In this document: positions 25,657 through 30,846 of the stretch, piece after piece | Position numbering within the stretch: position 1 is the stretch's first letter | Layout of the letters: every line of letters starts with the position of its first letter | DNA from: a virus | Strand: one strand, 5' to 3' | DNA length: 35,083 bases | IMG/VR virus record: IMGVR_UViG_3300032207_000456 | Location: 1-35,083 of that record | Program-made: the position numbers and the translations under genes | Notes under the pieces: model-generated | The model's input: only the letters and a program-made list of their open reading frames with translations | What the model was told of the DNA's origin: nothing | The model's database searches: none

Positions 25657-28600
25657 CTATTTATACTTCGGATATGCATTACCACAGTTGTCAGTTACAC
25701 CAGTTGCTTTAGTTCCTGTGCCAAGTGCAGCAACAATAGCATTATAGAGAGAACCTAATGTTGGATAATTTTGTGGTTTGTCTTTAAAGTTATTATACCA
25801 ATTTGTCATTTGAGATTGAGTTGCTGGATAGTTTCTCTTGTCCCAAAATGCTCTGTTAATTCTCTTGAACACATCAGTTTTATTATATTTGGTGTACTGA
25901 ATAGTATAAACGATTGCGACAGCACCAGCACCACCATCACCTCCACCATTACCACATCCACCACCAGATCCACCACCACCCCATTGGTTTCCTCTAGCAC
26001 CTTCTTGTGTTCCTTTCTCTTGTCTGTTGCTTCCACTACAGTTTCCATTGAACTGTGATCCTTGTCCTGGTCCACCTTGACTACACCGTTGAGATCCAGG
26101 ATCTGCTACACCATTTTGACATTCATTTGAACTGTTTTCTGGTTCACTAGCATATATTCTGCCAGCACCTCCACCATGACCACCTTCATCACCTCTTCTC
26201 CCTGAACCTTGGCCACCATTTCCACCAAACCATGAGGTAGGTTGTCCAGGTAGACCACCTGCACCTTTTCCACCTACACCACCATTTTTTTCATCACCAG
26301 CTTCACCACCTTCAGAACGTATTCTTTGGGAGATATTTTTACCTTTAATTTCAACCCAAGAATCTTGACCACTTCCACCAGGATATGGTCTTTCTTTATC
26401 ATCCCACTGTCCTGCAGTAGTTGCTCCTTTACCTCCTCTACCAGCAAAGAATTTAATTACATCACCACCTTCTGCATTATTCCATTCAATTTTGAAGGCA
26501 CCACCGCCTCCTCCACCACCAGCACCCTCATCACTGGTATTCTGTTTACCACCTCCACCACCACCAGCAATTCCTTTTGCTTCTACGGTAGAAGTTCCAG
26601 TTGGTAAAGTAAATGTGCTATTTTGTTCTCTATCATTAGCAAATCTATCAATAGTACCCTTAGTAACTTTTTCTCTATTTCCACCAGTAGTTCCAGAGCA
26701 TCCACTAACACCAATCACACCTTGTCTATTACCACCAACACCATTGGTAGATTTAAATTGTCTAGTTTTTAAAGTACAACCACCGAGACTGAATGTACCA
26801 TTTGAAACTGTACAATCTAATGTTTTTACTTTAAATGTTCTCTGAACACCACCAATATTCATTGTGGCTGTTTTTTGGGTGTTGAAAGAATTAGATGCAT
26901 TCATCTTAATTCTTAAACTACTACAAGAAGTACCGTTCTTCACTCCAGATTTTGAAGTAGTCCCATCCAAGAATTTAGCACCACCACCACTGATAGTTGC
27001 AGTTACAGTAACATTAGGAGACAAACCATGAACTGAATTTTGTGGAGAAGAGACGAACTGTGGTTGAGATTCATGTGCGGATCCACGATTTACATTAGTT
27101 TTAGACGATGGATTCATATTATAATTATCAACCGTCGTATCATTAGTTACTTTTACTGTAGCATCATCTTGATCAGTTTCACCAGTTCTACTATTTCTAA
27201 CGGTCATTGTATAAGTGAAAGTTCCACTTGTTGAAGGTGTAACATTTTTATTTCCTGATTGAGCATTTCCACTAGAAGTCGTGCCAGCGCTGGTTTTTTG
27301 AGAGGCACTATAAGTACTACCAACTACATTTTGAATTGCTGCATGGAAATCTGTATTTTGGGGTTTATAAAATCCATCATGTCCACCTGTTGGAGCAGTA
27401 ATATACTCATAATTTTGACTATTTGATGTCATAGCACTGGTAAGATCATTCATCCAAGTTACTTGACCAGTTGAACCTGTTCCTCCAGTAGTATCATCAA
27501 GTGATTGTAAATATGTTATCTTTGCTTTATGACCAGTTACATAATTGTATAATAATGAAACATCTTTATACTCTTGTGCGGTCGTTGCAGACCCAAAGGC
27601 ATCAAACATCTTTTGACATGTTATATTATTTGCATCCAATGATTGATTATTTCCAACTAATCCATTACTTTCCTGTGCTGAACAAGTTATATCTAAACGA
27701 ATTGGTCCAGGAGCATTTGCAATGACACCATCTGTTGTTTCTAAGGTATTCAGTTTATGTACTAATGATCCACCTTGAGAATGTCCAAACATGTAGACTT
27801 TATCTCTTGTTTTGGACAGATTATTAGATGACAGGTAAGTGTTTAAATTATTCTTTACCCATAGTAAGGCAGCTCTAGCATAAGGTAAATTGTCACCAAA
27901 CTCAAAACTGTTTAAATCTGCTTGACTTAAAAGATTTATATTTTGTGCTGGGGTTATTCCATCTTGTGGATATGCTACACCAAAAATAATTTTGTCATTG
28001 ATTGCTATATCATCTCCCTTTAAAAGAGATACCATCGTATTTGCGGAAGTTAATATTGTGGTTGCTGATGCTGATGTGTCCAGTGAAAGTGTTCCAGGAT
28101 AGGCAACGACTGCATCAACAGAACTATTTGTTACACTTGTAGGAACCCATAATCTACCTCTAACGGGATATGTTACTCCATCTATTGTATATGACTGATC
28201 TGTAACTGTTATAGTAGATCCCGTTATGGTTGTTGAAGATGAAGAAGAAGTTGTTGTAGTGGAAGATGTAGAGGCAACATTGGTAAAATCCTGTCCAGAA
28301 GAAGAAGTTATTTGATCAGCATCAACAATGTTCCAAGATAGTTTTGTGCTTTGACCAGTGATAATACTTGTTGGATTGGCAGTAAGAGTTACTGATGGAC
28401 TAAAGTTAAATGTAATGGATTTATCTACTTCATCTGGATTTGATCCAGCACCAACTGCTCTTGCAATGTAAACTTCACCATCAGTTGCAGGTGTTACAGT
28501 GTCATTTCCAGATTGTTTATTTCCAGTGCTAAATCCAGTTCCTTGTATTGCTTGAACTTTAACTGCGTTAGTTGAAGACCAATATATTTTTTTACTATTG

Positions 28601-30846
28601 TTTCTCTTTATACTAACTTGTTTAGAGCAAGTATCGGAAAGTGAACTGGTTGCACAGAAGAATAATGTTGGTGATGGTGGAGTTCCAACAATAACATTAA
28701 TTGTATCTGTTGTACTTCCAGTACAATTAGAGACAGTTAGTTCAAATTTAGTCTGACCATTTATTAAATTCGTTACATTTTTACTGCCAGTTTTTGTCTG
28801 ATCAGCAAGAGTCGTAGGAGTAATACTAGTCAGATCAGTAAAAGCACTACCACCAGAAGAAGCAGGAGTTTGTTTAGAAGTTACTGCACTATTTGTAACA
28901 TGAGTATATTCGTAATTAATTGTTGTACTTCCACCATCAGGGAACACAAATGGTGGATTTAAATTTGAAGCAGTTAGATTTAATGTTGGTAATGGTGGTG
29001 CTGGAGGTGATATTGTCCACACATCACTTTGGTTAGATCCAGATGTTGCAAAAGCTGCTGATAATGATATTGTTGTCGATCTTGTAGAACAATAATAAGG
29101 AGTTGTCATGTAAATTTCGACAATATCACCTTGTTTTAAATCATTTAGTGTTGTACCTTGGACATTTGTTCCCTTTTTCTTAAGATATGAGTTAGTATTA
29201 GATGTAGTTGCAGTAATGTTACAGTCAAATTCAAAACTTCCACCAACTGTAAATTCTGTTTGTGCTTGTTGACCAGGAACTAGTGTTGATGTTCCTTGCG
29301 GTACATCAGTAAGGGAGAATGCAGTAATTCCACAATCTCTTGCTTTTGAAGTTACATTCCATGTGTCTGATGTAGATCCAGGAACTCCAGCAATAACACT
29401 AAAAGTATTTGTTCCAGATACAGTGAAGGTAGCACTTCTTGTTCCCTGCGATGTTGTTGCGGATAACAATCTAAGTTGTATTTGATCACCTTGTCTAACA
29501 CCAAATGTGCCACTAGTCCAATCTTGTACTACAGTGCCACCTCTAGTAACTTTAAATTTTGCCTCTACTGCTGAATCTGCAGCAATGCTGGCAGTTCCCT
29601 CATCAAATATATTTGCACCGTCTCCAGTGGTCATACCATTTAGAGTAATGATATTACTGTAAATTAATTCGTTTCTTAATACGTTTGTTTGATCAGTAAA
29701 TACAAAAGCAGATGGAATTGTATCAATTGGTCTTGGTCTAGTTGTTACTGAATATGTGTCTGATTGATTAGCAACAGTTAGTGTCGCATCAGTTGTTGTA
29801 CTGTAACTACTAGATGCTGTCTGCTTAATTTGAATTGTATCACCATTATTACAAGTATTAGTCGAAGCAGTTGTATATTCTTGTACTACAGAACCACCTC
29901 TAGTAATTCTATATTCAGAAGAATTGGGTGAAGTGAAGGTTATAGGTAGTGGATTGTTTCCATTTAAGTTTTCATCAGCACCACTAATAGTAATTATATT
30001 ACTTTCATGAACTGTGGAAAGATCTACATCAACAACATCAGTAAATGTAAATGGATCAATAGATGTATCTGCAAGTCTTGTTGTAATATTCCAATTTGCT
30101 TGGAAAATGCCAAGTTGGACAAGAGTTGTTACTGAAGTATTATAAAAATTAGAAGTTGTATTTCTTAATTGTAATGTATCTCCATCAAAAATCTTGGCGG
30201 TTTGTGTCCAAGATCCACCATTTATTCTTAATTCTCCATTTCCTACAATAAAAACGTCTACACCAATTATATCATCAATACCAGTGACAGTAACAACGTC
30301 ACTACCTTGTAAAGTATTGATCTCTAGATTATCTAGATCGGTAAAATCAAAAAAGTCTGGATCATCATCAAGTTCTCTTGTCTTAACAGTCCAACCATCT
30401 CCAGTTCTTTTACCGATGGTTACACCTATACCATAAATGACATTAAATGCATCTCTACCAACAACATTTGCTGACAGAGTGAGTACTTCAAGTTCAACTT
30501 TATCTTTATTACGGATAATAACAGGATTATTTTGGGAATCGGAAGCATCTACAAAGTCTCCTACTGTTCCGTAGGAATCGGTTTCTTCAATATATGGAGT
30601 AACTCTAACCGATACTCCAACACCAGCATTTAATGCAAATAGAGGTTCATTTAGAGTTGCAACAAATAATGCTTTATAGTTAATGCCTGTTACAGTTACA
30701 GGACTAGAAGTATAAGCTAGTCCTGGTAATACTCCCGATCCATCACCACCATTTTCTGGTGGAAAAATAAACTCATCTGGGTATTCGTCAAGATTACCTC
30801 GCCATGATATATTAGATCCAGGACCCTGAGCACCAATTAAAGGCAT
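25657..30846 (-). CDS. Giant fibre protein with embedded alpha/beta hydrolase
   Basis: Residues 1-610 include about four Ig-like repeats of 100-130 residues, each beginning near W-x-V-T-x-R or Y-S-V-T-T-R, with F-x-F-T-D soon after. Residues 620-860 hold further Ig-like modules. Residues about 882-1177 are an alpha/beta hydrolase with GHSQG (S1023), D1117 or D1118, and H1156 in GGHDG; Ser/Thr-rich linkers join it to a split Ig-like domain. Residues about 1425-1645 are glycine-rich, recalling polyglycine adhesin tips such as phage S16 gp38 (resemblance only). The last 85 residues are a small aromatic domain. No signal peptide. It is likely a tail-fibre adhesin with esterase or related activity on host surface material. 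Confidence 0.8.
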   Translation of the reverse strand: MPLIGAQGPGSNISWRGNLDEYPDEFIFPPENGGDGSGVLPGLAYTSSPVTVTGINYKALFVATLNEPLFALNAGVGVSVRVTPYIEETDSYGTVGDFVDASDSQNNPVIIRNKDKVELEVLTLSANVVGRDAFNVIYGIGVTIGKRTGDGWTVKTRELDDDPDFFDFTDLDNLEINTLQGSDVVTVTGIDDIIGVDVFIVGNGELRINGGSWTQTAKIFDGDTLQLRNTTSNFYNTSVTTLVQLGIFQANWNITTRLADTSIDPFTFTDVVDVDLSTVHESNIITISGADENLNGNNPLPITFTSPNSSEYRITRGGSVVQEYTTASTNTCNNGDTIQIKQTASSSYSTTTDATLTVANQSDTYSVTTRPRPIDTIPSAFVFTDQTNVLRNELIYSNIITLNGMTTGDGANIFDEGTASIAADSAVEAKFKVTRGGTVVQDWTSGTFGVRQGDQIQLRLLSATTSQGTRSATFTVSGTNTFSVIAGVPGSTSDTWNVTSKARDCGITAFSLTDVPQGTSTLVPGQQAQTEFTVGGSFEFDCNITATTSNTNSYLKKKGTNVQGTTLNDLKQGDIVEIYMTTPYYCSTRSTTISLSAAFATSGSNQSDVWTISPPAPPLPTLNLTASNLNPPFVFPDGGSTTINYEYTHVTNSAVTSKQTPASSGGSAFTDLTSITPTTLADQTKTGSKNVTNLINGQTKFELTVSNCTGSTTDTINVIVGTPPSPTLFFCATSSLSDTCSKQVSIKRNNSKKIYWSSTNAVKVQAIQGTGFSTGNKQSGNDTVTPATDGEVYIARAVGAGSNPDEVDKSITFNFSPSVTLTANPTSIITGQSTKLSWNIVDADQITSSSGQDFTNVASTSSTTTTSSSSSTTITGSTITVTDQSYTIDGVTYPVRGRLWVPTSVTNSSVDAVVAYPGTLSLDTSASATTILTSANTMVSLLKGDDIAINDKIIFGVAYPQDGITPAQNINLLSQADLNSFEFGDNLPYARAALLWVKNNLNTYLSSNNLSKTRDKVYMFGHSQGGSLVHKLNTLETTDGVIANAPGPIRLDITCSAQESNGLVGNNQSLDANNITCQKMFDAFGSATTAQEYKDVSLLYNYVTGHKAKITYLQSLDDTTGGTGSTGQVTWMNDLTSAMTSNSQNYEYITAPTGGHDGFYKPQNTDFHAAIQNVVGSTYSASQKTSAGTTSSGNAQSGNKNVTPSTSGTFTYTMTVRNSRTGETDQDDATVKVTNDTTVDNYNMNPSSKTNVNRGSAHESQPQFVSSPQNSVHGLSPNVTVTATISGGGAKFLDGTTSKSGVKNGTSCSSLRIKMNASNSFNTQKTATMNIGGVQRTFKVKTLDCTVSNGTFSLGGCTLKTRQFKSTNGVGGNRQGVIGVSGCSGTTGGNREKVTKGTIDRFANDREQNSTFTLPTGTSTVEAKGIAGGGGGGKQNTSDEGAGGGGGGGAFKIEWNNAEGGDVIKFFAGRGGKGATTAGQWDDKERPYPGGSGQDSWVEIKGKNISQRIRSEGGEAGDEKNGGVGGKGAGGLPGQPTSWFGGNGGQGSGRRGDEGGHGGGAGRIYASEPENSSNECQNGVADPGSQRCSQGGPGQGSQFNGNCSGSNRQEKGTQEGARGNQWGGGGSGGGCGNGGGDGGAGAVAIVYTIQYTKYNKTDVFKRINRAFWDKRNYPATQSQMTNWYNNFKDKPQNYPTLGSLYNAIVAALGTGTKATGVTDNCGNAYPKYK
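25658..25665 (-). promoter_or_regulatory. Perfect T4-type late promoter, TATAAATA
   Basis: On the minus strand TATAAATA is made from the last Tyr and Lys codons and the first two bases of the TAG of the giant fibre gene. It lies 45 bases before the ATG at 25613. A GGGG/CCCC mini-hairpin (25624-25639) sits in the leader just before the Shine-Dalgarno AGGAG. Confidence 0.75.

Follow-up and report, generated by a model that had tools for sequence, protein, structure and literature searches.

An alpha/beta-hydrolase domain inserted in an Ig-like domain of a cyanophage tail fibre belongs to a family found in three circular orders

RESULTS

The fibre gene and its split Ig-like domain

The window analysed here is the whole stretch of 35,083 nt of viral DNA (IMG/VR record IMGVR_UViG_3300032207_000456), and its minus strand carries the gene of a long fibre protein with the features collected in Table 1. 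Residues 221-588 of the fibre match PHROG 4924, 'short tail fiber protein' (E 1.4e-20). A first-pass annotation, made from the sequence alone, had described an alpha/beta-hydrolase domain spliced into an Ig-like domain of this protein. The motifs it named are found where it placed them (GHSQG at residues 1021-1025, SLDD at 1115-1118 and GGHDG at 1154-1158), two Ig-like stretches starting at residues 818 and 1194 flank the enzyme, and the adjoining module, around residues 746-815, does have the uninterrupted strand STGNKQSGNDTVTP. The same insert, with a single copy of the domain, is present in a 47.7-kb contig, which shares 99.98% identity with the window over 15.4 kb and evidently comes from the same virus.

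Elsewhere in the fibre, residues 1408-1647 (window 25906-26625) form a glycine-rich domain at the C-terminus (PF21722, E 8.9e-6), in which G+C rises locally to 0.43-0.46; this end of the protein is a possible receptor-binding tip. Apart from the fibre, a 453-aa ORF at 7052-8413 matches a PHROGs ferrochelatase in its first part and a 2OG-Fe(II) oxygenase in its last part, and the ferrochelatase label is doubtful.

Table 1. Features of the fibre gene, in window coordinates
Feature	Position	Strand	Basis or remark
Fibre gene, 1729 aa	25657..30846	-	ortholog of S-SCSM1 SSCSM1_226 and of ORFs in L004 and L005
Uninterrupted neighbouring Ig-like module with STGNKQSGNDTVTP, about residues 746-815	28402..28611	-	
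Split Ig-like domain, part 1, residues 818-857	28276..28395	-	aligned to uninterrupted domains of L001, L004 and L005
N-terminal linker, Ser/Thr-rich, residues 858-881	28204..28275	-	inserted block only
Inserted alpha/beta-hydrolase domain, residues 882-1177, order Ser-Asp-His	27316..28203	-	model, fold matches and family alignment
S1023 codon, predicted nucleophile	27778..27780	-	model residue 156, directly after strand 146-155 (strand 5)
D1118 codon, predicted acid	27493..27495	-	model residue 251, after strand 243-248 (strand 7)
H1156 codon, predicted base	27379..27381	-	model residue 289, after strand 279-284 (strand 8)
C-terminal linker, short, residues 1178-1193	27268..27315	-	inserted block only
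Split Ig-like domain, part 2, residues 1194-1235	27142..27267	-	alignment to uninterrupted orthologs

Orthologous fibres without the insert

Orthologs of the fibre were sought by tblastn in 50,697 phage records, which gave a match to S-SCSM1, present as two records, and a weak match to one other phage; two further orthologs, L004 and L005, were added from IMG/VR. When the four fibres were aligned, all three orthologs, which are 65-68% identical to the window protein, lacked residues 858-1193 as one block. At the junction the window reads SSGQDFTNV, the insert and then NAQSGNKNVTPSTSGTFTY, and the ortholog reads SSGPSFSNI TALSGSKEVTMNSSGTYKW with the Ig-like domain unbroken, as it is in all three. 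Measured against fibres without it, the insert thus comprises 27268-28275 with both linkers, and is longer than the first-pass range of 27316-28206, which corresponds to residues 881-1177. We are almost certain that a hydrolase was inserted in the fibre: the block is absent from three of three orthologs and the segment is modelled as an alpha/beta hydrolase. It would have entered a surface loop of the Ig-like domain as a single block, linkers included.

Presence and absence of a domain carry no direction in themselves, and the same pattern would be seen if an ancestral fibre had possessed the domain and the other lineages had lost it. This is very unlikely, as the three orthologs are cleanly without the domain and keep an intact Ig-like domain, and as the window domain is closest to that in L030, an unrelated Ig-repeat protein and not a member of this fibre family. 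Insertion is thus retained as the reading of the locus, but the suggestion that it was recent is not upheld. Base composition is alike in the insert and the remainder of the fibre (G+C 35.8% versus 37.3%) and hence uninformative, and the domain shares no more than 55-62% identity with its nearest relative.

Fold and catalytic triad

Residues 868-1180 were modelled with AlphaFold2 together with nine relatives (model m6c560082d2e1), and the result is a canonical alpha/beta hydrolase with a pLDDT of 89.4 and a pTM of 0.90. In the numbering of the model, strands are at 9-21, 24-35, 42-49, 86-90, 146-155, 173-177, 243-248 and 279-284; one helix lies between strands 42-49 and 86-90, two others are at 120-140 and 157-168, a helical stretch lies between strands 173-177 and 243-248, and helices follow strands 243-248 and 279-284. 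The arrangement is that of the alpha/beta hydrolases, with the G-x-S-x-G elbow after strand 5, the Asp after strand 7 and the His after strand 8. The first-pass annotation had hinged on this fold and on S1023, D1117/D1118 and H1156 coming together, and at the level of strand topology the model speaks against neither. Between the two candidate acids it offered, D1118 is conserved, and the position of D1117 is taken by G, N, S, E or Q in relatives.

Searching the PDB with this model by Foldseek gave 1041 chains at E<=1e-3, and structural realignment gave Z>=8 in all 1000 of the 1000 chains compared. The best fold match is the feruloyl esterase 7xri (Z 20.6, 242 residues, rmsd 3.4, 12% identity), with which many esterases, lipases and acylaminoacyl peptidases tie. 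The predicted fold is firm. These fold matches make an esterase plausible, and nothing points to a depolymerase.

At the level of sequence the relationship is distant. Pfam gave nothing above its curated cut-off for the window segment, the best hydrolase family scoring 12.8 bits against 25, and in a scan of 10 family members the segment had no Pfam family at E<=0.1. A sequence search of the PDB with the segment alone gave no hit, and profile searches of the PDB reached at best E 0.02 (LpqC, 3d0k), all their matches being weak and lying near the GHSQG elbow or in strand regions. A chance match of motifs was rejected, because the segment has a family of its own and a confident alpha/beta-hydrolase model. 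SGNH esterases have a GDS block near the N-terminus of the domain and a DxxH block at its C-terminus; this type was rejected too, as the nucleophile lies in a mid-domain GHSQG and D1118 and H1156 are 38 residues apart. The insertion, the fold and the positions of the triad in the window domain are thus borne out by sequence and model.

One family in three circular orders

Relatives were collected by scanning IMG/VR with SSCSM1_235 of phage S-SCSM1 and with Ser-segment and whole-domain alignments. Three profile HMMs, for the Ser segment (A), the Asp segment (B) and the His segment (C), were used to record the order in each protein. In this way 42 distinct domains were found in viral contigs, the isolate S-SCSM1 and one bacterium, and they fall into three circular orders: 20 have the order Ser-Asp-His of the window (A-B-C), 18 are Asp-His-Ser (B-C-A) and 4 are His-Ser-Asp (C-A-B). 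Left out of the counts were 22 proteins with an identical Ser segment; L086, which nearly duplicates L085, and L089, truncated at a contig end, were left out of the 42-row tree, and so were the duplicates L076 and L079 and the contig-end locus L122. For L030, L053/L054 and their copies the third segment was placed by eye first and was recovered by later HMMs. When viral sequences were scanned with the Asp-His segment, 27 loci came up, almost all of them on known contigs, and judged by contig names only L122 was new.

The isolate provides an order other than that of the window. SSCSM1_235, a gene other than the fibre ortholog, has the order His-Ser-Asp with its His segment N-terminal, and in BLASTP its Ser and Asp segments are collinear with those of the window domain (39% identity over 257 residues). 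Among the 50,697 phage records, three different member queries matched S-SCSM1 only (two records). For the order Asp-His-Ser, the model of L013 has its strands ordered 7, 8, 1-6 and keeps the strand context of Asp and His. Confidence in this model is moderate (mean pLDDT 72.5, pTM 0.77, 76 of 299 residues below 50, weak edges), and pLDDT over the five L013 models runs from 72.5 down to 55.0. By both methods its top PDB matches are engineered permuted HaloTags (8b6n: E 2.0e-4; Z 11.0, 194 residues aligned, rmsd 4.1). With PHROGs, 1 of 15 permuted domains had a match, a weak one to phrog_13666, which has no named function.

Edges of the Asp-His-Ser domains are nearly constant across hosts, from 'SxYxxIGLES' to 'HGAPG', with the exception of L067. 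The linker NPxGxIxNxQF from His to Ser is common to the His-Ser-Asp and most Asp-His-Ser domains. We hold it very probable that these domains are one sequence family in three circular orders. Since most loci are metagenomic contigs, the orders might be artefacts of assembly or of overlapping repeats, yet His-Ser-Asp is present in the complete isolate genome of S-SCSM1, Asp-His-Ser is identical in independent contigs (L013, L014 and L015; L021 and L023) and occurs in 13 host contexts, and the domain edges are constant; an artefact is therefore extremely improbable.

The predicted catalytic residues are conserved almost throughout this one family. Ser is kept in 41 of the 42 distinct domains, Asp in all 42 (by eye) and His in 41 (by eye in the bacterial member), and members are often less than 50% identical to the window domain. 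In L065:7004-7903, within an open-ended protein of 3382 aa, Ser is changed to Thr (FGHTQG) and His to Gln (GQNAY) and Asp is kept; judged from these replacements the domain is likely a pseudoenzyme, and with both Ser and His lost it suggests that the domain can persist without catalysis. Such a loss, tolerated at least once where FGHSQG/GHxAF is replaced by FGHTQG/GQNAY, would agree with a lectin-like binding module in which the hydrolase fold and triad are present but catalysis is incidental or lost, and insertion into a fibre is compatible with binding as well. However, conservation of Ser, Asp and His in 41 of 42 domains, across three orders and at identities often below 50%, argues against a binding module, which we regard as unlikely. 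A working enzyme is the better account, and the domain is probably an active hydrolase in the virus of the window.

Host proteins and shared sites

Comparison of the flanks of the 42 domains gave 25 host contexts, 24 viral and one bacterial, so that the family is spread over many unrelated hosts. Six host proteins were scanned with Pfam, which named an S74 fibre (L013), a collar-domain fibre (L022) and subtilase-family proteins (L021 and L047); in the scan of host L019 no family was found. In L017:786-4331, a permuted hydrolase occupies residues 398-682 of a podovirus-type tail nozzle protein, identified by PF25675 (E 3.5e-150, two stretches in total, the best at 687-1180). Two different serine hydrolases, a subtilase (PF00082) and the present domain, share one chain in L021:5599-8400 and in L047:4769-7756; in L047 the insertion lies in a C-terminal stretch that by eye resembles a copper-binding cupredoxin.

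Two orders are present in 4 of the 25 contexts: L012/L018/L028 with L039, L016/L027 with L075, L022/L024/L025 with L057, and L030 with L037. The first is the strongest. Its host, a long tail fibre, matches 1281 phage records in tblastn, and the long tail fibres of S-SRM01 and P-SSM2 are empty sites for the block of L012, L018, L028 and L039. The A-B-C domain of L012 is flanked by S-SRM01 residues 750 and 757. In L039 the same loop is occupied by a B-C-A domain, which follows S-SRM01 residue 747. In the other three contexts the two orders share one small domain but occupy different loops of it; these loops were placed for L022/L057 through S-WAM2, which is an empty site for the block of both, and by eye for L016/L075 and L030/L037.

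Cellular relatives

A genome scan for cellular relatives gave 45 candidates and none was confirmed; a second gave 63 candidates, of which one was confirmed, in Parcubacteria bacterium OLB19 (L090:6734-7693). It is a stand-alone protein of 320 aa with the order Ser-Asp-His, 31% identical to the window domain, and is apparently secreted, with a signal-like N-terminus by eye. Among 379 genomes of its phylum three had a match, namely its own genome and two weak ones (25-26% identity, E about 5e-4), and no relative of comparable strength was found in the other 378.

History of the permutation

A tree of the 42 domains was rooted at the midpoint, and the branch of the cellular member is long. The order A-B-C makes up the deep branches, together with the cellular relative, and is therefore probably ancestral as far as sequences tell. 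The C-A-B domains are one clade (100/99) nested in B-C-A, and the tree requires four order changes. The shared linker from His to Ser and the near-constant edges of the B-C-A domains fit one fusion of the ends, after which the finished cassette was copied.

An alternative is that the orders arose independently many times, with a circular DNA form re-inserted and cut anew at each entry. Repeated re-insertion would agree with the number of cut points, two or more distinct ones in addition to the native one, with the occurrence of two orders in one and the same fibre loop, and with an AU test in which monophyly of the permuted domains as a whole is weakly rejected (p 0.0285). That rejection, however, barely stands without L057 (p 0.049) and is gone without L057 and L067 (0.56); cut points are near-identical within each order except in L067, and no long repeat is found at the domain edges. 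We consider many independent origins rather unlikely. Tandem duplication with partial deletion, or a circular intermediate, probably gave rise to the orders, and ordinary phage recombination would then have spread each of them from one gene to the next. Across the domain edges of 41 loci no direct repeat longer than 10 nt was found, the shorter matches being chance-like, and repeats within the window are only short and mostly low-complexity. Permutation may be tolerated because insertion into a loop needs ends that are close together, which would make a new cut point cheap.

DISCUSSION

The window domain is best explained as a catalytically complete Ser-Asp-His, esterase-like module in a cyanophage fibre, and we put the probability of this reading as a whole at about 75%. 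By analogy with known tailspike esterases, the role of a receptor-modifying esterase on the virion is favoured, with rather less confidence than catalysis itself. Displayed outside the virion, the enzyme would at adsorption strip ester-linked groups, e.g. O-acetyl, from the surface polysaccharide of the cyanobacterium. Annotation or domain content marks the hosts of the family as virion proteins; SSCSM1_235 is annotated 'tail fiber protein (virion protein)'. Mass spectrometry found 45 proteins in the S-SCSM1 virion (PMC9602691), and 48 CDS of this phage are labelled virion protein, a label that is not tied to that list. The family as a whole most likely represents a portable esterase of virion proteins that tolerates permutation and modifies receptors.

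A more far-reaching proposal is a portable cassette of phage particles that passes from one virion gene to another, unrelated one by way of a tandem or circular DNA intermediate and may be opened at a different loop for each new host. We regard this as possible but doubtful. If true, permutation would routinely accompany movement and would offer a choice of ways to present the active site on the fibre. Most known circular permutations of enzymes are single, ancient events or were made in the laboratory. In the present case, one family with an intact triad has three orders in about 24 viral contexts, and empty, filled and differently permuted versions of a site can be compared. This makes it possible to test how domains naturally insert into surface loops, and whether selection favours permutation or it simply follows from the way the DNA moves. 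It also points to an unrecognised class of enzymes on the adsorption structures of marine phages, one that is missed by Pfam and is present in the cultured phage S-SCSM1.

Tailspike esterases are known to deacetylate surface polysaccharide, and the activity of G7C gp63.1 is needed for infection (PMC10743462). SGNH domains occur in receptor-binding proteins and fibres of Klebsiella prophages (PMC13123978). All of these resemble the window protein in placing a Ser hydrolase on an adhesin, and the tailspike O-acetyl esterases, which remove acetyl groups and leave the polymer uncut, are the model for the role proposed for the window domain. G7C gp63.1 and the Klebsiella proteins are SGNH enzymes, however, whereas the window domain is an alpha/beta hydrolase with GHSQG after strand 5; the string 'permut' occurs 0 times in the available text of the Klebsiella report (PMC13123978).

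With the alpha/beta-hydrolase superfamily the window domain shares the fold, the strand order, the nucleophile elbow and the positions of Asp after strand 7 and His after strand 8. Feruloyl and cinnamoyl esterases, TTL lipase, dienelactone hydrolase and acylaminoacyl peptidase are the nearest solved folds. It differs from the solved members in being only ~8-16% identical to them, in its place inside a fibre and in having permuted relatives. The only clear cellular relative found, that of OLB19, has the same order as the window domain but stands alone, not in a fibre. A 2024 classification of the superfamily describes permutation of peripheral strands only (1-2 in some lipases) as well as domain insertions, and the word 'phage' occurs 0 times in its available text (PMC11878206). 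Searches of the open-access (PMC) literature brought up no paper on a naturally permuted alpha/beta hydrolase in phage fibres.

Permuted alpha/beta hydrolases are otherwise familiar from engineering. In the HaloTag permutants 8b6n, 8b6o and 8b6p the new termini lie in a loop of the chain, as in the permuted phage relatives, and permutants of Candida antarctica lipase B have likewise been engineered (PMC3982246); the HaloTag forms are laboratory-made, whereas permutation in the phage family is natural. Natural circular permutation is known generally (PMC3281007), and circularly permuted GTPases, cpRAS and YRG, include one that is inserted into larger proteins (PMC2430557). Like the phage family, these GTPases present one fold in more than one natural order with a scattered distribution. 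Their cut points differ between families (PMC2430557), whereas here the orders occur in one sequence family in phage particles, and two orders are found also in one homologous loop.
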